This document shows, in pieces, positions 3,912 through 50,533 of a stretch of 64,000 nt of DNA. Below the pieces are notes generated by a model that saw only the letters and a program-made list of their open reading frames with translations, was not told the origin of the DNA and searched no databases. A program made the translations under genes and the position numbers. Position 1 is the first letter of the stretch; every line of letters starts with the position of its first letter. Source of the DNA: Sphingomicrobium marinum (GTDB lineage Bacteria; Pseudomonadota; Alphaproteobacteria; Sphingomonadales; Sphingomonadaceae); contig NZ_JANPVQ010000001.1 of NCBI RefSeq assembly GCF_026157105.1, forward strand, positions 1,233,501-1,297,500, written 5' to 3'.

Positions 3912-4436
3912 TCAATCCTGGTCGTTGGAGTTCGGAATAATATCCTCATAGAGGCCCTCCGAAACTTGAACTTCGGAATCCATGATCGCATCGATGTACG
4001 CTTGAAATTCGGGATAGAAGATTGATTTTCTTTGTTCCCAATACCGAGCGAACCCGGGTTGGTCCCTCACTCCAGCAACAATCACCGCAAGCGAGTTTTG
4101 GATCTCTGTGTCGAGCGTGCCTTCTGCATTGAGATAGTAACTGTTCTGCAGGTTCAGCATCAAAGCATGCATATTGAGCACGAATTGATACCACTCTGCA
4201 GGCGTGAGCGAATCTGGGGATGACAATGCACTCCAGAATATTGAGCTAGCCTGCTCGTTGTTAGCAATCCGCGAGTACCAGGAACTTATGGAAGCGTTGG
4301 TGGCGTTGGCTGATGCGTACTGGGTCGCCTGGGCATTACTTCTGAGTTGCAGCCCAACGAAAATAAGCGACAGGACAATCGCTACCGCACTTATGACTTC
4401 CGCGATCTGTGCCCATTGCTTCAATTTGAATTTCAT
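3912..4436 (-). CDS. hypothetical single-helix membrane protein
   Basis: I do not recognise a named family. The 174-residue product has a basic N-terminus (MKFKLKQWAQ), one hydrophobic helix at about residues 12-29 (VISAVAIVLSLIFVGLQL), then a soluble region rich in Gln, Asn, Ser and Trp. Similar small proteins with an N-terminal WAQIAEVISA-type helix are common in marine and sphingomonad genomes and lack a known role. GGGGGAG just upstream of the ATG at 4436 supports this start; a GTG two codons earlier is possible. Base composition is close to half GC in parts, lower than the flanking core genes, which suggests acquired DNA. It is convergent with ndk. Confidence 0.7.
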   Translation of the reverse strand: MKFKLKQWAQIAEVISAVAIVLSLIFVGLQLRSNAQATQYASANATNASISSWYSRIANNEQASSIFWSALSSPDSLTPAEWYQFVLNMHALMLNLQNSYYLNAEGTLDTEIQNSLAVIVAGVRDQPGFARYWEQRKSIFYPEFQAYIDAIMDSEVQVSEGLYEDIIPNSNDQD

Positions 4437-4587
4437 AGCCACTCCCCCAATGGCAAAAGAACATCCGAGCTATTCGGCAACCTTGGTCAGTTCACGAATA
4501 TCAGAGGTTAAGCAAGAGGCGGCCGCGAGAATTGATTTAGAAATCAACAGCGTCTTGCGCCTTCAAGTGGGAATCGACAGCCATAAT

Positions 4588-4752
4588 TGCCATCGCGGCG
4601 TCGCCTCCTAGCGCATCCACATGAGCCGCGAGCAGGCCAAAGGGGACCGTCCTTTCTTCGGCGAACTGGTCGAGTTCATGATGAGCGAGCCGGTCGTCGT
4701 CCAGGTGCTCGAAGGCGAAGACGCAGTAAAGCGCAACCCCGCGCTTACTTGA
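4588..4752 (+). pseudogene. degenerate partial copy of ndk
   Basis: This stretch aligns without frameshift to about codons 32-86 of the intact ndk at 3384-3806. It reads [11 protein letters not shown], then [19 protein letters not shown], then [12 protein letters not shown], and departs from ndk after 4738. Compared with ndk it lacks 18 bases (six codons, FYAVHK) and has a nonsense codon TAG at 4609-4611 where ndk has AAG. Most other differences are synonymous (CAT/CAC, GTT/GTC, GCC/GCA, GTG/GTA). A 43-codon open frame remains from the ATG at 4621 to the TGA at 4752 but cannot encode a working kinase. The rest of the 4437-4744 interval shows no other gene. Confidence 0.85.
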
Positions 4753-5596
4753 TTATAATGCCCTCTTTCATGAGTGTTTTCTGGGTCGCCTCGTCAAGTT
4801 CCCTTTTTTCGAGTCTCAATTTGAAGTCGGCACAGACGATCAAGTCAGCCGAGGTCACGCTTAGGAGTTGTGATCGCCGTGAAAGACGAGGGCAACGCGA
4901 CCTCCAAAATTCCAACGCTGGAACGCTGCCTCGAGAACTAGCGTACGTAACTTTTTCCGCTTCGGAGCGCACTTCAACAGGCCCCAGCCCGTTCCCTGCC
5001 AAGATGAAATCAAGCGGACTAAGCGACCTCCACGTTTTTCTGAAGTCAATTGGGCCCTCAGTTCTGCGATCTCTGATACAGTCCAACAGATAATTCGATC
5101 GCGCAGAAATTATCGGATTTCGACTTAACATCTTTGCGTACAGGAAAACGTTCAAGGCCGCCGCGGGCGCATCTTCGCAAGTGACCGGCTCTTGTCGCGC
5201 CAAGCATATGTCCCTTGCCATCGCTAAGACCAAAAACCGTTTTGTTCTCTCATCGTATGGATCGAGGTGAGCAAAGCTATCTTCAGCCGCCAATTCGTCT
5301 TCTCGATGCACGGTCGTAATACATTGCTCCGCCCAAACCTCGACCAAGAGAAGTCTTTCTAACGCCTCCGTAGCCGCATCTCTCTGGGCTAAAGGGGATG
5401 GCGCTGCCTCGAAGTAAGCTGCATGTGCTCTGCCGATCTCAGTGCCCATGTAGCCGGACGGCGCAGCGTATGCCGCAAGCAAAAATGTCAGCGCACCAAA
5501 GAATGAGAAGCGCGCATTGGGTTTGGAAATCCGGGTAGCATTACCGATCTCGAACTTGTTCAAGCAACTTCTCGACGCTGACAGCCAAAATCGCAT
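4745..5596 (-). CDS. hypothetical protein, probably exported or membrane-anchored
   Basis: No family recognised. From the ATG at 5596 the product has about 283 residues: a basic start ([18 protein letters not shown]), a hydrophobic segment [17 protein letters not shown] near residues 31-47 that could be a late signal anchor, and a soluble region with several cysteines and many charged residues. AGGTGAGG lies directly before 5596; upstream in-frame ATGs at 5611 and 5617 are possible. Codon use is less GC-biased than in neighbouring core genes. Its 3' end overlaps the last eight bases of the open frame in the ndk remnant. It belongs to the accessory segment between ndk and purN. Confidence 0.6.
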
Positions 5597-44597: not shown

Positions 44598-44962
44598 ACC
44601 ATATCGCCCGCCTGCCAGGGGACCGGGCGGCCGCGCGATGAGCGAGGAAAGTCCGGGCTCCACGGGAAAACGGTGCCGGGTAACGCCCGGCGGCCCTTCG
44701 GGGTCAGGGACAGTGCCACAGAAAGCAATCCGCCGCTCTTCGGGGCGGTCAGGGCGAAAGGGTGCGGTAAGAGCGCACCGCGGTTCCGGCAACGGCGCCG
44801 GCACGGTAAACCCCACCGGGAGCAAGACCGAATAGGGACGGCACATGCGGTTTCCCGCCGCGCCGTCCGGGTTGGTCGCTAGAGGTGAGGGGCAATCCTC
44901 ACCCCAGATGAATGGTCGCCCATCCTCTCACGAGGTGGACAGAACCCGGCTTACAGGTCTCC
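44596..44962 (+). ncRNA. rnpB: RNase P RNA (class A)
   Basis: Catalytic RNA of RNase P, which matures tRNA 5' ends. The universal conserved parts are present in order: GAGGAAAGTCCGGGCTCCA (44643 onward), ACAGTGCCACAGAAA, GGTAAGAGCGCACC, the AGATGAATGGTCGCC segment, and the 3' block ACAGAACCCGGCTTACAG. AGACC at 44596-44600 pairs with GGTCT at 44956-44960 to close P1, which sets both ends to within a few bases. A stable hairpin (GGTGGCGGA/TCCGCTACC, with one G-T pair) follows at 44978-44999 and may mark the end of transcription, though without a T tract. Confidence 0.93.
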
Positions 44963-45016
44963 TGGCTTAATCTCTTTGGTGGCGGATCCTTCCGCTACCT
45001 ATTAGGCTTAAGGGCT

Positions 45017-45553
45017 ATGGCAAGACGACAGCGATCCGACGATTGGGGCTTCCCCCGCTGGCGCTCCTACGGGGAGAAGGGCCGCGAGGCGTCCAAGGTG
45101 CGACTGTGCGATCGCGTCAACTGCCGCGAGGTCGGCGATCGGCCAGCGCCCAAATCTCCCAACAGCCCCGAACGCTGGTACTTCTGCGAGAAGCACGCGG
45201 CCGAGTATAACAAGAACTGGAACTATTTCGCGGGCCTCGATGAAGCCGAAGCCAAGAAGCGCGCACAGGATGAGAGCCGCGATGCGTCGGGTTTTCGCCA
45301 GAGCGCGCACTACCAATGGGCCGGCCCTGGTGACGGCAGTCGAAGCCGCGACGAGATGCGCGCGCTCGATGTGCTCGGGCTCGATCCCGATGTGGATTTT
45401 GAAGAGGTGAAGAAAGCGTACCGCGCGCTAGCCAAACAGTTTCACCCCGATCGCAATCCCGACGATGATGATGCAGCGGAGGAATTCGCGAAAGTGCAAG
45501 CCGCCTACGATGTCCTCAAGACAAATGAGGAAGCGCGACAAGCGCTGGGCTAG
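45017..45553 (+). CDS. J-domain protein with cysteine-containing N-terminal domain
   Basis: 178-residue co-chaperone. The C-terminal J domain (ALDVLGLDPDVDFEEVKKAY, RALAKQFHPDRNPDDDDAAE) has the HPD motif needed to stimulate DnaK. The N-terminal part carries RLCDRVNCREVGD and WYFCEKHAAEYNKNWNYF, a Cys-x4-Cys ... Cys-x2-His pattern that may bind zinc. It lacks the G/F and zinc-finger regions of DnaJ itself, so it is a specialised partner. The ATG at 45017 follows AAGGG. The stop overlaps the convergent thioesterase stop (CTAG). Confidence 0.88.
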   Translation: MARRQRSDDWGFPRWRSYGEKGREASKVRLCDRVNCREVGDRPAPKSPNSPERWYFCEKHAAEYNKNWNYFAGLDEAEAKKRAQDESRDASGFRQSAHYQWAGPGDGSRSRDEMRALDVLGLDPDVDFEEVKKAYRALAKQFHPDRNPDDDDAAEEFAKVQAAYDVLKTNEEARQALG

Positions 45554-45999
45554 GGGTTGCGGATATAGGTCCCGACGACGTTGGCGACCACGCGCTCTTC
45601 ATCGATGAACGCCTTGCCGCGCACGAACGCGATGGACTTGGTCATCTTGTAGCATTCGCACCGCGCCAGGACGGTATCGCCGGCATGCGCTGGGCGCAGG
45701 TAATCGAGCCTGAGGTCCACCGTCGCGATCGGTTCGAACTTGCCCATTTTCTGCCAGACAGCGGCCCCGCCGCACGCATCGACCAGGCTGATGATCGCAC
45801 CGCTGGCGAGGATGCCCGTTTCGGGAACGCCGACGATTTCGGGCCGGAACGGAAGCGACATTTCGACCCAGTCGTTGCCATGATCCTGGTATTTGTAGCC
45901 GAGCGCGGCGCCGTGTCCGTAATGTTCGGCGATATCGAGAAACTTCTTGGGATCGAAGACATCGGCGATACGCGCGTGGTCCTCCGGGTGCGCGGTCAT
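45550..45999 (-). CDS. PaaI-family hotdog thioesterase
   Basis: 149-residue hotdog-fold protein likely to hydrolyse acyl-CoA thioesters. Typical parts: LPFRPEIVGVPETGILASGA (active-site turn before the central helix), IISLVDACGGAAVWQKM and ATVDLRLDYLRPAHAGDTVL. No membrane segment. The start overlaps the sufE stop by four bases (ATGA), so it is the last gene of the Psp-sufE strand. Substrate unknown. Confidence 0.88.
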   Translation of the reverse strand: MTAHPEDHARIADVFDPKKFLDIAEHYGHGAALGYKYQDHGNDWVEMSLPFRPEIVGVPETGILASGAIISLVDACGGAAVWQKMGKFEPIATVDLRLDYLRPAHAGDTVLARCECYKMTKSIAFVRGKAFIDEERVVANVVGTYIRNP

Positions 46000-46403
46000 G
46001 TGAGCCGCTCGGCGGTCTTGCGCACGAGCGCGATCATGTTGGGCACGCCCTGCGTCCGGTTCGACGACAGTTCACGGGTCAGGTCGAACGGTTCGAGCGC
46101 TGCGGCAATGTCGGTCGCCGCAACCTCGGCGGCTGGCTTGTCCTGCACCGCCGCCAGCACCAGCGCGACCACGCCCTTGGTGATCGCCGCATTGCTATCG
46201 GCAAGGAAGTGCAGCTTGCCGTCCTGGCTGGTGGGATAGACCCACACGCTGGCCGAACAGCCGCGCACCTTGGTGGCATCGGTCTTCAACGCATCGGGCA
46301 TCGGTTCGAGCTTGCGGCCGAGATCGATCAGCAGCCGGTAGCGATCTTCGCTATCGAGGAATTCATATTCGTCCTGGAGGTCGGACAAGGTGGGCAAACT
46401 CAT
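45996..46403 (-). CDS. sufE: cysteine desulfuration protein SufE
   Basis: Takes persulfide sulfur from the desulfurase SufS for iron-sulfur cluster assembly. The active cysteine is Cys49 in KVRGCSASVWVYPTSQDGK; the rest (ADSNAAITKGVVALVLAAVQ, ELSSNRTQGVPNMI) fits SufE. 135 residues, normal. It follows the small coiled-coil membrane genes with a gap of 21 bases, so it might be read from the same transcript, though a functional link is not established. suf genes proper are not nearby. Confidence 0.93.
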   Translation of the reverse strand: MSLPTLSDLQDEYEFLDSEDRYRLLIDLGRKLEPMPDALKTDATKVRGCSASVWVYPTSQDGKLHFLADSNAAITKGVVALVLAAVQDKPAAEVAATDIAAALEPFDLTRELSSNRTQGVPNMIALVRKTAERLT

Positions 46404-46424
46404 GCTGGCGGCAATAGCCCCGCG

Positions 46425-46667
46425 CTAGCGGTCGCGCAATTGCTCGATCTGGCGCGTGAGGCTGTCCTCTTTCTCCACCGCGATCCGTTCAAGGGTCTCG
46501 ACGCGGTCGCGCAGGCGGGCCACCTCGGATTCCAGTCTCGGGTTGGCTGCCGCATCACTGCTTTCGATCCGGGACTGGTCGCGATACTTATATTTCCAGC
46601 GCGCCGTCATCATCACCGTCACCATGACCATGAGCACAATGAAGGCGACCATCTCATATTCGTTCAC
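46425..46667 (-). CDS. small membrane coiled-coil protein of Psp locus, paralogue 5
   Basis: 80-residue protein: one helix (MVAFIVLMVMVTVMMTARW) and a coiled coil RLESEVARLRDRVETLERI that continues AVEKEDSLTRQIEQLRDR. The ending matches the other four small genes here and the PspC tail. GTG start overlaps the stop of the preceding paralogue (GTGA), so translation is coupled. Closest to paralogue 2 by eye. Not PspB itself, which is encoded at 48293. Probably an inner-membrane Psp-complex component; no function is known. Confidence 0.78.
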   Translation of the reverse strand: MNEYEMVAFIVLMVMVTVMMTARWKYKYRDQSRIESSDAAANPRLESEVARLRDRVETLERIAVEKEDSLTRQIEQLRDR

Positions 46668-46999
46668 TTGGCCTTTTCCTTCGATAGGTCTGACGACAGG
46701 TCGCTCAGCGCGTCGATTTCAGCGGCCAGACGTGCCGGCTTGTCAGTGGCGATGCGTTCCAGTGTCTCCACCCGCTCGCTGATCTTTTCGAGCCGGTTCA
46801 TCAAGTCGCGATTTTCCGCGGTCAGTTGTTTGATTTCCTGAAGGTCTTCGGGGTTGCTCTTGTGGATCAGGTTGCCGTCATCGTCAGACAGCGGGTAGCC
46901 ATTCTTGATCTTCATATAGTCAAGAAAAATCCAGCCGAAGATGGCCACGAGGCCAAGCAACATGCCGAGGATGGGTATCGAAAGCCCGATGATCTTGAT
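46664..46999 (-). CDS. small membrane coiled-coil protein of Psp locus, paralogue 4 (start unclear)
   Basis: About 111 residues: helix IGLSIPILGMLLGLVAIFGW, a KIKNGYPLSDDDGN linker shared with paralogue 3, and a coiled coil ending NRLEKISERVETLERIATDK then LAAEIDALSD. The expected start follows TAGGAGC directly after the upstream stop, but the codon there is ATC (46999), not ATG. The next in-frame ATG is at 46963 and would clip the helix; an upstream ATG at 47077 lies inside paralogue 3. I used 46999 because the length then matches paralogue 3 and the ribosome site is perfectly placed. Confidence 0.68.
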   Translation of the reverse strand: MKIIGLSIPILGMLLGLVAIFGWIFLDYMKIKNGYPLSDDDGNLIHKSNPEDLQEIKQLTAENRDLMNRLEKISERVETLERIATDKPARLAAEIDALSDLSSDLSKEKAK

Positions 47000-47003
47000 G
47001 CTC

Positions 47004-47336
47004 CTACTGGATCTTCTTGGGTTCGCCGCGCAGTGCTTCGATCTCTTTGGCAATACCATGAGACTCGTCGGTGACAATACGTTCGACCGTCTCGAGCCGG
47101 TCCTTCATCGACCCCATCTCGGCGCGGAGCTGCGCGTTCTCGTTGGTCAACAGCTTGATGCGTTCCTGGCTTTCCTTGTCGGTCTTGGGCCCGATCGCAT
47201 TGCCCCAGCTTCCTTCGAGTGGATAGCCGTTGCGGATGCGCAGCCATGTGCTGATCACCGATCCGGCGACCATCAGTCCGACGATCATGGCGACAAAGGG
47301 CGCCAACTCGATTGCCAGGCGATATTCTTCGTTCAT
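47004..47336 (-). CDS. small membrane coiled-coil protein of Psp locus, paralogue 3
   Basis: 110 residues: a helix (IELAPFVAMIVGLMVAGSVI), the linker RIRNGYPLEGSWGNAIG, and a coiled coil ERIKLLTNENAQLRAEM followed by KDRLETVERIVTDESHGIAK and EIEALRG. The NGYPL linker and overall length match paralogue 4, suggesting a recent duplication. ATG start overlaps the stop of paralogue 2 by four bases (ATGA). Confidence 0.8.
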   Translation of the reverse strand: MNEEYRLAIELAPFVAMIVGLMVAGSVISTWLRIRNGYPLEGSWGNAIGPKTDKESQERIKLLTNENAQLRAEMGSMKDRLETVERIVTDESHGIAKEIEALRGEPKKIQ

Positions 47337-47602
47337 TTGTTCCTCAAATCTTCGATTTCACGGGCAAGGCTGTTTTCCTTGTCGACGGTGATGCGTTCCA
47401 GGACATGCAATCGATCGCGAAGATCGCCGATTTCCTTGCGCAGTTCCCGGTTCTCGGCCTCCAGCTTCGGATCCGCAACATGCCTTTCGCTTTTGCCGGC
47501 TGCCTGTCCCTTGGCTTTGGCAAAGCTTCTTAAAACGCCGCCAATGGTGGTGATAAGGATGATGAGGATGACGAAATTGAAAGGAAATCCAAGCGCTTCC
47601 AT
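47333..47602 (-). CDS. small membrane coiled-coil protein of Psp locus, paralogue 2
   Basis: 89 residues: a helix (FVILIILITTIGGVL), a basic linker (RSFAKAKGQAAGKSERH) and a coiled coil (LEAENRELRKEIGDLRDRLH, VLERITVDKENSLAREIEDL). The heptad-like Leu spacing is regular. Start ATG uses the A of the upstream TGA stop (TGATG). It resembles PspB in size and layout but its tail carries the LAxEIxxLR ending found in the PspC tail instead of the PspB ending. Confidence 0.8.
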   Translation of the reverse strand: MEALGFPFNFVILIILITTIGGVLRSFAKAKGQAAGKSERHVADPKLEAENRELRKEIGDLRDRLHVLERITVDKENSLAREIEDLRNK

Positions 47603-47874
47603 CAGTTCGTACTTTCCTTTCGTTCGGGCAGTTGCCGCAATGCCTCGATCTGCGCCGCGGTTTCCGCACCACTATCGATGGCAAGTTGTTCTAGCACAGC
47701 TACGCGGTCTTCAAGAACCTTGTTCTGAACGGCATATTGCGCAGCCTTCTCGGCAGCGTAGTTCGCCTCGATTTGCTGCTTCCGTTCGGCGTGCTTGAAC
47801 GCGAAGCGGAGGATGTAGACGATCAGGACAAAGGGCAGCAAAAGCGCCAGGGCCGAGATGAGTGTATCGCCCAC
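47602..47874 (-). CDS. small membrane coiled-coil protein of Psp locus, paralogue 1
   Basis: 90 residues: a helix (LISALALLLPFVLIVYILRF), a basic then Ala/Gln-rich coiled coil (ANYAAEKAAQYAVQNKVLED) and the tail RVAVLEQLAIDSGAETAAQI then EALRQL. It starts with GTG after a well-placed AGGAG, 11 bases downstream of the pspC stop. The most divergent of the five in its coiled coil, but the tail motif is retained. Confidence 0.8.
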   Translation of the reverse strand: MGDTLISALALLLPFVLIVYILRFAFKHAERKQQIEANYAAEKAAQYAVQNKVLEDRVAVLEQLAIDSGAETAAQIEALRQLPERKESTN

Positions 47875-47885
47875 GGGATCCGCTC

Positions 47886-48290
47886 CTACTTCAGGTCGTC
47901 GATCTGCTGCGCCAGCACGCGGTTTTCGCTGGTGACGAAGCTTTCGATGTCGGCAAGCCGCCGGTCGATGTCGCGGAACTGCGAATGAATCTGGCGGGCT
48001 GATTTGCGCGGTGAGGCACGCACGCCTTGCCAGAACTTCTGTTCGTCAGCGGTCTGCCCTTCAAGCTCGTAAGGGCGGTCGGGCACAAAGAAGCCGGCGA
48101 GCAGGTAGAACAGGATGGTGGGCGATCCCGGGATCAGGAACGTCATTAGCATGCCGAGCCGGACCAGCGCGACGTCGAAGCCGGTATAGTCGGCAATGCC
48201 GGCACAAACGCCGAGGAACTTGGCATTCTTCTTGTCGCGATAGAATTTGGTGTGACGCGGCGGGCCTTCATAGATGGGCGAGCGTGCCAT
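47886..48290 (-). CDS. pspC: phage shock protein C (PspC domain)
   Basis: 134-residue inner-membrane protein of the phage-shock response. The PspC domain is YRDKKNAKFLGVCAGIADYT, GFDVALVRLGMLMTFLIPGS and PTILFYLLAGFFVPDRPYE, ending with a helix. The C-terminal tail RRLADIESFVTSENRVLAQQ then IDDLK is a short coiled coil, like the leucine-zipper tail of E. coli PspC. Start ATG follows AAAGGACGC, two bases after the pspB stop. With PspB it likely senses membrane stress and sequesters PspA. Confidence 0.92.
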   Translation of the reverse strand: MARSPIYEGPPRHTKFYRDKKNAKFLGVCAGIADYTGFDVALVRLGMLMTFLIPGSPTILFYLLAGFFVPDRPYELEGQTADEQKFWQGVRASPRKSARQIHSQFRDIDRRLADIESFVTSENRVLAQQIDDLK

Positions 48291-48292
48291 GA

Positions 48293-48622
48293 TCAGCGTC
48301 CTTTCCGGCTCAGCAGTCGTTCCTGTTCGGCGAGCAATTCGTCGGCACGGCCCAACAGGCCCGCATCATCGTCTTTGTAACGCTCCATCGGCAGCGCTTT
48401 CTGTTTCCAGTCGGGATTTTCGGCGCTCATGATGCGCTCGATCGTTTCGAGCCGGTCATTCAGACGTTTCGCAGCACTGTGAAGCTCGTCTAGCAGTTTC
48501 TCGTCAGGCACGGACAGGGTGGCCTGCTGCTTCCACTTTGTGATGTAGTGGAAAATGATCCACGGCATCGCGATGAAGAGCGCGAAGATCCCCAAAATCG
48601 GGATGATGATACTTTCGTCCAC
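48293..48622 (-). CDS. pspB: phage shock protein B
   Basis: 109-residue protein: N-terminal helix (IIIPILGIFALFIAMPWIIF), then HYITKWKQQATLSVPDEKLL and the conserved PspB ending AAKRLNDRLETIERIMSAEN followed by PDWKQKA. An extra C-terminal tail of about 30 charged residues extends it beyond the usual 75. It starts with GTG; AAAGGGGAAAAC serves as ribosome site. A CCCTTT/AAAGGG hairpin lies in the 33-base gap after pspA and might dampen downstream transcription. Confidence 0.9.
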   Translation of the reverse strand: MDESIIIPILGIFALFIAMPWIIFHYITKWKQQATLSVPDEKLLDELHSAAKRLNDRLETIERIMSAENPDWKQKALPMERYKDDDAGLLGRADELLAEQERLLSRKGR

Positions 48623-48655
48623 TTTGTTTTCCCCTTTGCCCGCATAAAGGGCTGG

Positions 48656-49327
48656 TTAGCTTGATTTCTTGGCCTTCAAGGCGGCTTTCATCGCCTCCAA
48701 CTCGGCATCGACCTTGTCGGAGGAGCGGAGGTCGGAAATTTCCTGCTCGAGACTCTTAGGCCCTTCAAGGCCGAGCGCTTCGGCCGTGCCTTCCGCCATG
48801 TCGGCGCGCTTTTCGAGCATTTCGAAGCGAGAGAAGGCATCCTGCGTGCGGCTGCTGTGCAGCACTTCGCGGGCCTTGGCGCGGGTAATCGCGCTCTCGA
48901 GACGGTTCTGGATGGCAGCCTGACGAGCCCGTGCCTCACGCAATTTTGCCTGGAGCTTGGCGATATCGGCTTCGTACTGCTTGAGCGTCTCGTCGATGGC
49001 GGCAATTTCCTCGCGCAGTCCGTCGGCCATATCGGCGGCCTTCTGGCGTTCAATCAGCGCCTGTTTGGCTAGATCCTCGCGGTCCTTGGACAGTGCCAAT
49101 TCGGCCTTTTCCGTCCAGCTGTCCTGCAAATCGTCGAGGCGAGTGAGGGCGCGGCGCATTTCCTTGCCGTCCGCGATAGTCCGTGCGGCCGATGCCCTGA
49201 CTTCCACAAGTGTCTCTTCCATCTCGAGGATGATCATTCGGATCATCCGCGCCGGATCTTCGGCGCGATCGAGGATTTCGGTCATGTTCGCCGCGAAGAT
49301 ATCTTTGACGCGAGAAAAAACTGCCAT
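48656..49327 (-). CDS. pspA: phage shock protein A
   Basis: Membrane-repair ESCRT-III-like protein that also inhibits PspF. 223 residues: amphipathic N-terminal helix MAVFSRVKDIFAANMTEILD, the hairpin helices (ARMIRMIILEMEETLVEVRA, SAARTIADGKEMRRALTRL) and long coiled coil (LKQYEADIAKLQAKLREARA). This is the standard PspA/Vipp1 layout. The start at 49327 follows GGAGCACC. It is the first gene of the operon under a sigma-54 promoter. Confidence 0.95.
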   Translation of the reverse strand: MAVFSRVKDIFAANMTEILDRAEDPARMIRMIILEMEETLVEVRASAARTIADGKEMRRALTRLDDLQDSWTEKAELALSKDREDLAKQALIERQKAADMADGLREEIAAIDETLKQYEADIAKLQAKLREARARQAAIQNRLESAITRAKAREVLHSSRTQDAFSRFEMLEKRADMAEGTAEALGLEGPKSLEQEISDLRSSDKVDAELEAMKAALKAKKSS

Positions 49328-49363
49328 TTGGTGCTCCAATTAGGACCCTGTCGAAGAAATATA

Positions 49364-49379
49364 TGCGAGAAACATGCCA
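49364..49379 (-). promoter_or_regulatory. predicted sigma-54 promoter of pspA
   Basis: On the minus strand the site reads TGGCATGTTTCTCGCA, with GG and GC separated by ten bases, close to the consensus TGGCAC-N5-TTGCA. The GC element lies about 38 bases before the pspA ATG, leaving a leader of about 27 bases. PspF, a sigma-54 activator encoded next door, is the expected activator. Confidence 0.78.
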
Positions 49380-49416
49380 AGAACAGCTATATCCATAAAT
49401 TCCGTAATATCTGCAA

Positions 49417-49443
49417 TTTTTCGACCAATGGCGGTTCGAAAAA
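49417..49443. promoter_or_regulatory. inverted repeat, candidate PspF upstream activating site
   Basis: Eight-base perfect arms TTTTTCGA (49417-49424) and TCGAAAAA (49436-49443) with an 11-base spacer. It lies 60-90 bases upstream of the predicted pspA transcription start, the usual place for a PspF activating site. Function inferred from position. Confidence 0.5.
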
Positions 49444-49454
49444 TCTTGCCAAAT

Positions 49455-49470
49455 GGTGGGATTTCCCACC
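49455..49470. promoter_or_regulatory. perfect palindrome before pspF
   Basis: GGTGGGA and TCCCACC are perfect seven-base arms around TT. It ends a few bases before the pspF ribosome site AAGGAA. It may be a second PspF site, giving autoregulation, or a hairpin near the pspF start. Confidence 0.45.
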
Positions 49471-49480
49471 AAGGAATAGT

Positions 49481-50533
49481 ATGGATCGCGGCAAGCAACT
49501 GATTGGCCAAAGCCTTGCATTTCTCGACGCCAGCGAGCGCGCAAGCCGCGCCGCGCCGCTCAACCGCCCCGTGCTCGTTATCGGCGAACGCGGTACGGGC
49601 AAGGAGCTGATTGCGGAAAAACTCCACCATTTGTCGCAGCGCTGGTCGGGGCCTCTCGTTACCATGAATTGCGCGGCGCTTCCTGAAAACCTGATCGAGG
49701 CCGAGCTGTTTGGCCATGAAGCGGGTAGCTTTACCGGCGCCTCGAAAAGTCGCCAGGGTCGCTTTGAGGAGGCAGATAGCGGCACGCTCTTCCTCGATGA
49801 ACTGGCGACGTTGTCATCGGCGGCGCAGGATCGCCTCTTGCGCGCGGTGGAATATGGCGAAGTGACGCCGATTGGCGCGTCGAAGCCGATATCCGTCGAT
49901 GTGCGTATCGTGGCGGCCACCAACGAACATCTACCCAGCCTCGTACAACAGGGCCGCTTTCGCGCCGACCTGCTCGACCGCCTGAGTTTCGAGGTCGTCA
50001 CGCTGCCGCCACTGCGCGATCGCGAGGGCGATATCGAGCTGCTGGCCGATTTCTTCGGTCGCCGGATGGCGGTCGAGCTCGAGTGGCCCAACTGGCCAGG
50101 GTTCTCGAAAAAGGCGATAGAACGGCTCGAGAATTATCCGTGGCCCGGCAACGTGCGCGAATTGCGCAATGTCGTCGAGCGCGCCGTCTACCGTGCCCAA
50201 GATCCAGAGCGCGAGGTCGACAAGATCAATTTCGATCCCTTCCGTTCGCCCTGGGCGCCGCTCATCAAGATGGACTCGGAAGTCGAAGCTGCTGAATTCG
50301 ACGCGGCTGAAGAAGAAAGCGAGACCGGCGCGCCCGCGGCTGCTGCCCCTTATGCCAAGCTCGACACGGACGATTTCAAGGCCAGTATCGCAGAATATGA
50401 AAAGGCGGTAATCTCGAACGCGCTGGAAAAGAACCGCTATAATCAGCGCGCGACCGCCGAGGCGCTGGGCCTGAGCTATGACCAGCTTCGGCACGCCATG
50501 AAGCGCCTTCAGCTCAATGCCGAGGCGACCTAG
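49481..50533 (+). CDS. pspF: sigma-54-dependent activator PspF
   Basis: 350-residue AAA+ activator of the psp operon. Walker A is GERGTGKE (about 35-42), the sigma-54 contact loop reads GSFTGA (82-87, usually GAFTGA), Walker B is GTLFLDELATLSSAAQDRLL, and the arginine-finger and sensor segments RFRADLLDRLSFEVVTLPPL and WPGNVRELRNVVERAVY follow. The C-terminal helix-turn-helix is ATAEALGLSYDQLRHAMKRL. It has no regulatory N-terminal domain, as expected of PspF; PspA would inhibit it. The ATG follows AAGGAA. An acidic linker of about 60 residues lies before the DNA-binding part. Confidence 0.93.
   Translation: MDRGKQLIGQSLAFLDASERASRAAPLNRPVLVIGERGTGKELIAEKLHHLSQRWSGPLVTMNCAALPENLIEAELFGHEAGSFTGASKSRQGRFEEADSGTLFLDELATLSSAAQDRLLRAVEYGEVTPIGASKPISVDVRIVAATNEHLPSLVQQGRFRADLLDRLSFEVVTLPPLRDREGDIELLADFFGRRMAVELEWPNWPGFSKKAIERLENYPWPGNVRELRNVVERAVYRAQDPEREVDKINFDPFRSPWAPLIKMDSEVEAAEFDAAEEESETGAPAAAAPYAKLDTDDFKASIAEYEKAVISNALEKNRYNQRATAEALGLSYDQLRHAMKRLQLNAEAT

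Follow-up and report, generated by a model that had tools for sequence, protein, structure and literature searches.

In Yersinia, the C-terminal domain of PspC is reportedly exchanged between PspB and PspA. The Yersinia PspB-PspC complex switches from an off state to an on state; once it is on, the C-terminal domain of PspC captures PspA, and PspF is released (PMC5596341). In E. coli, a leucine-zipper region of PspC is required for the interaction with PspA (PMC3068692), and Zymomonas transcriptome papers report that pspABC is induced by stress. The closest precedent for the genes considered here is found in Ravi et al. 2024 (PMC11237479), the main text of which mentions psp operons with "PspB duplicates", as well as PspC fused to a "divergent C-terminal PspB" (AOL22920.1 is among its examples); very likely these cases represent the phenomenon described here, encountered one operon at a time. 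A preliminary description of the DNA analyzed here had known of no account of such genes, and the mention of duplicates corrects that statement in part. What remains of it is that the main text of the article treats neither arrays nor their tails nor their sphingomonad distribution: it offers no arrays of up to seven genes, no tail analysis and no family-wide linkage or loss data. The literature searched (most subscription journals lay outside its reach) yielded no description of the arrays, of the way they combine features of PspB and PspC, of their occurrence in nearly the whole family or of the split case discussed below. PspB duplicates in psp operons are already known; the sphingomonad arrays with PspC-type tails would be a new form of them.

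The psp locus of Sphingomicrobium marinum

The window, meaning the whole 64,000-nt stretch analyzed (Sphingomicrobium marinum, NZ_JANPVQ010000001.1 positions 1,233,501-1,297,500), contains a psp locus with the minus-strand order pspA-pspB-pspC-five small genes-sufE-thioesterase and a divergent pspF; all coordinates below are window positions unless a locus is named. The gene pspF (49481..50533, plus strand) encodes a sigma-54 enhancer-binding activator (TIGR02974, 483 bits, over cut-off, at 49499-50506). On the minus strand, pspA (48656..49327; TIGR02977, 254.7 bits, over cut-off) is followed by a canonical pspB (48293..48622; PF06667, 90.9 bits; TIGR02976, 82.2 bits) and by pspC (47886..48290; TIGR02978, 116 bits; PF04024, 63.6 bits), whose product joins a PspC domain to a C-terminal tail. 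The array then runs, on the same strand, from gene 1 (47602..47874, 90 residues, A type) through gene 2 (47333..47602, 89 residues, a terminal-like Z type), gene 3 (47004..47336, 110 residues, C type, with a GYPLExSWG linker) and gene 4 (46664 to about 46993, about 110 residues, D type, with a GYPLSDDDG linker) to gene 5 (46425..46667, 80 residues, Z type), the last before sufE (45996..46403, minus strand; named by similarity to an annotated neighbour in a RefSeq record). In one RefSeq record, three counterparts of the array genes carry the annotation "hypothetical protein". A gene for class A RNase P RNA (294.7 bits) lies at 44615-44969 on the plus strand.

The preliminary description placed five small membrane genes between pspC and sufE, at 46425-47874, with starts and stops that overlap or almost touch and with a common end motif, R(V/L)xxLExI followed by LAxEIxxL. 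All of this is borne out: the five are open reading frames on one strand, each with an N-terminal transmembrane (TM) helix, a cytoplasmic helix and the motif, and an HMM built from the five tails alone recovers the array genes. Junctions range from -4 to about +11 nt (pspC and gene 1 are 11 nt apart, genes 1 and 2 overlap by 1 nt, genes 2 and 3 by 4 nt, genes 3 and 4 are about 10 nt apart, and genes 4 and 5 overlap by 4 nt), and overlaps of 1 or 4 nt occur at 135 of the 264 internal array junctions in Sphingomonadaceae loci. A sigma-54 promoter-like site of the form GG-N10-GC, TTGGCATGTTTCTCGCAT (49363..49380, minus strand), lies 52 nt 5' of pspA, and the locus of the nearest relative, L053, has it unchanged; it agrees with 9 of 11 consensus positions, a score reached by 2.4% of shuffled upstream regions. 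A scan of 45400-49700 revealed no sigma-70-like promoter, and the terminator-like matches there were weak only, at about the shuffled rate. Because of this combination and the tight gene spacing, a single transcript from the pspA promoter across the array is likely.

Each array protein of the window is predicted to begin with a single hydrophobic helix, after which positive charge follows, and to continue as a long helix in the cytoplasm; the tail consensus is R(V/L)xxLExI-(T/V)(D/E)-LAxEIxxL. Over 379 array proteins, a TM helix is predicted in 365, the C-terminal side is the more positive in 373, and none has a second TM helix. Structure models of gene 3 and PspC, of moderate confidence (pTM about 0.3), place the helices of gene 3 at residues 3-35 and 53-104.

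Relationship of the array to PspB and PspC

An HMM built from the five tails was run against 16,338 open reading frames from 136 psp loci and recovered each of the 381 array genes at E<1e-3; it also picked up another 10 members of the array, as well as 8 PspC and 1 PspB. PspA, SufE and unrelated reading frames were absent at E<0.1, and the concern raised at the outset, that such a profile would match unrelated families, is not borne out among these reading frames. Since the model picks the array, then PspC and PspB, and no other reading frame, the motif is not a generic coiled coil; PspA, itself a long coiled coil, goes unmatched. A PDB sequence search returned coiled-coil look-alikes only, PADLOC gave no match, and there was no phage match, although one match fell on a large Sphingomonas replicon on which the psp operon itself sits.

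PspC ends in the same tail as the array, and part of that tail is also present in PspB, which the preliminary description had missed. The C-terminal helix of PspC (residues 94-134, at 47889..48011 on the minus strand; predicted helix 94-133) closes with the shared motif RRLADIESFVTSENRVLAQQIDDLK, while the PspB of the window holds the first part only, RLETIERIM. By single-profile search the link of the array to PspB and PspC is weak (best tail-HMM E-values 1e-4 to 1e-1), and a profile of all array tails retrieves no PspC at E<1e-3. Profile-profile comparison with hhalign gives 95.9% for the array against PspB, over almost the full length, and 95.1% for the last 39 residues of the array against the PspC tail, as opposed to 1.8% for PspA and 0.1% for SufE; the array-PspC relationship rests mainly on this comparison, in which reversed-sequence controls mostly scored 1-15% and one scored 77%, helical heptads inflating some scores. 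Between PspB and the PspC tail there is hardly any similarity (9.7%). Because the array matches both and they do not match one another, the array proteins are, as judged from these profiles, PspB-shaped with a PspC-type end.

The genes might still be nothing other than extra, divergent copies of pspB, giving redundant PspB dosage and no new property, and full-length similarity to PspB, the same topology (a single N-terminal TM helix and a C-terminal cytoplasmic amphipathic helix), the location in the psp operon and the duplicates named by Ravi et al. 2024 would all fit such a reading. However, the PxW end that follows the helix in PspB occurs in 0 of 381 array proteins, which have the PspC-type tail instead. 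Almost all array genes also fall under the PspB cut-offs: the best scores in the window are 20.2 of a required 25.6 bits for PF06667 and 28.5 of 51.7 bits for TIGR02976 (gene 5), and across 41 family genomes the Pfam PspB model finds 38 canonical PspB and only one further match over cut-off. Since a canonical pspB is retained beside the array, and distinct array classes persist across species, we consider mere PspB copies an unlikely explanation. Standard models overlook these genes in nearly all sphingomonads examined, and the present analysis gives them a name.

Distribution, ancestry and a split PspC

A profile search of the kind the preliminary description had proposed, for copy number and linkage to pspC, covered 118 Sphingomonadaceae psp loci (the window's own, those from 36 more genomes within the genus, and those from about 80 other genera). 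Array genes lie directly 3' of pspC in 116 of them, one to seven per locus: one gene in 7 loci, two in 20, three in 38, four in 33, five in 11, six in 6 and seven in 1. Array-bearing relatives include Sphingomonas, Sphingobium, Sphingopyxis, Novosphingobium, Blastomonas and Tsuneonella. Of the 19 loci from other families of the order, 17 have no array gene, and the other two have a single one, located after a second PspC that lacks the tail. When 289 genomes were drawn from across the class, just one from outside the family matched, by a pair of neighbouring genes not linked to psp, and two other families have one orphan array-like gene each, again away from psp. (Such orphans, similar to the last-gene type, lie at L167 3593-3826, L168 3680-3904 and L169 3727-4209, in other alphaproteobacterial families and away from psp.) When the tail profile was applied to whole genomes, 61 from the family, the matches listed all fell within about 3 kb of pspC except that of G098, which adjoins pspA instead. 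Eleven family genomes lack PspC at the survey threshold, 9 of them lacking both pspA and the array; in G154, which has no PspC match, pspF, pspA and pspB run to the contig end, and the last of the eleven is G098, described below. Strict linkage, shared loss and the shared tail support the original assignment of the array to the psp system. Between array and sufE, L250 has a 222-residue gene without a Pfam match (4354-5022), and a similar-sized gap is present in many other genera.

Against the nearest relative L053, dN/dS for genes 2 to 5 is 0.07, 0.05, 0.04 and 0.12; at 0.04-0.12, these are real genes under purifying selection. In a tree, the nearest relatives of each array gene of the window are genes of other species and not its neighbours (gene 3 is closest to L029 gene 4, clade support 0.96), so the paralogue classes are old. 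The resemblances noted earlier, of genes 3 and 4 in their GYPL linker and of genes 2 and 5 to each other, do hold and mark old classes; the stepwise duplication within the array that they had suggested does not, since the paralogues are older than the species. Recent duplication of adjacent genes was discarded as the source of the expansion, relatives across species being closer than neighbours.

Gene 1 has a different history. Its 5' part (bases 1-115 behind pspC) matches L053 gene 1 at 77% DNA identity and its 3' part (bases 114-290) matches L053 gene 2 at 89%, with the junction near 47771, and L053 still has these two parent paralogues as separate genes. By this DNA comparison gene 1 is a young hybrid in which two tandem paralogues have been fused in frame, with the loss of about 264 nt; arrays therefore change by recombination between paralogues. 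Gene 4 calls for another correction, as the 110-111 residues assigned to it require a non-standard start: no ATG, GTG or TTG is found at a position giving the full membrane helix (46961-47006). An internal ATG lies at 46963, and 5' of it L053 differs at third positions only. These third-position changes, and an AGGAG-N7-ATC common to the window and L053, make it likely that translation starts at ATC (AUC) 46993.

The psp locus of G098 (L255 3100-3910) has pspA, a tail-less PspC core, no pspB and then two array genes, and the PspC family model is split across it, with positions 3-67 on the PspC gene and 52-121 on the second array gene. Its near-perfect sigma-54 site and its pspF, which is elsewhere in the genome, are both intact. 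This pattern, from one genome, would be expected if array proteins can supply the missing PspC tail. Additional short, tail-less PspC-domain genes beside a normal pspC are seen in L014 and L039 (another family; exactly one array-like gene follows each), in L120, L134 and L141, and, without any array, in L045.

Candidate roles and comparison with known systems

Because the array resembles both PspB and the PspA-binding PspC tail, the leading idea is that its proteins may form mixed oligomers with PspB, PspC and PspA. We somewhat favour the view that they act as accessory subunits of the PspB/PspC membrane switch that binds PspA, their extra tails being exchanged with PspB, PspC and PspA. Each protein would have one TM anchor and a cytoplasmic C-terminus, as in PspB, and would offer a PspC-type docking helix. 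Array proteins would pair with PspB, with PspC and with each other and could hold PspA themselves, so that the PspB/PspC/PspA exchange would be widened by additional tails, each carried on a membrane helix of its own. Copy number would set the amount of PspA that can be held at the membrane, and the kind of disturbance that leads to its release or recruitment would depend on the differing membrane helices and linkers. From sequence we infer this binding of PspA, PspB and PspC, the sensing and the copy-number effect, as well as a possible division of labour and any effect on PspF. The two loci of another family in which a tail-less second PspC is paired with exactly one array gene speak for the accessory-subunit reading. 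Against it stand the weak single-profile link to PspB and PspC together with the reversed control at 77%, the array-like orphans that a few other families have at a distance from psp, the extra tail-less PspC genes found next to a normal PspC (L120, L134, L141) or where there is no array at all (L045), and the fact that the split PspC comes from one genome. A bolder version, possible although we doubt it, would have the array supply PspC tails that are uncoupled from PspC and can stand in for one another, each borne by a separate membrane sensor; PspA recruitment would then be decided by a combinatorial pool of up to nine competing membrane partners, which recombine into new chimeras.

It would appear rather improbable that the array proteins are effectors and not regulators, serving as membrane anchors that hold PspA oligomers for repair in a role like that of PspD or PspG. 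A tail related to the PspA-binding domain, co-ordinate multi-gene expression that suits a scaffold, and an array that persists alongside PspA in a genome that has lost PspB and the tail of PspC would all be in keeping with effectors, but a uniform anchor would hardly call for linkers and helices as varied as these. That the array consists of small coiled-coil membrane genes unrelated to psp, lying in the pspC-sufE gap by chance or serving SufE, is already disfavoured and very improbable. The genes do sit there, and coiled coils give spurious similarity (as in the reversed hhalign control), but the array accompanies pspC in 116 of 118 loci and is lost along with psp, its shared tail is absent from PspA and other reading frames, and several loci of other families have pspC beside sufE and no array.

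On the accessory-subunit reading, one bacterial family would have multiplied and diversified the capture module, and one genome would have split it from PspC. The array and the split genome give natural variants with which to ask where in PspB/PspC damage is sensed and by what means PspA is captured.

Set against PspB (PF06667, TIGR02976), the array proteins share one N-terminal TM helix, a cytoplasmic helix with RxxxLExI, the psp operon and an hhalign score of 96%, and differ in lying below the curated cut-offs, in lacking the PxW end, in their extra LAxEIxxL segment and in their several linker classes. With the C-terminal half of PspC (TIGR02978 positions about 50-121) they share the tail RxxxxExxxTxxxxxLxxEIxxL (hhalign 95%, weaker in single-profile search), but they are separate proteins without a PspC domain, PF04024 matching none of the five in the window. 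The enterobacterial pspABCDE system has no such array, and has PspA, PspB, PspC, PspF and sigma-54 control in common with this locus; whereas the stress sensor of E. coli has two parts, that of sphingomonads may have many that can replace one another.
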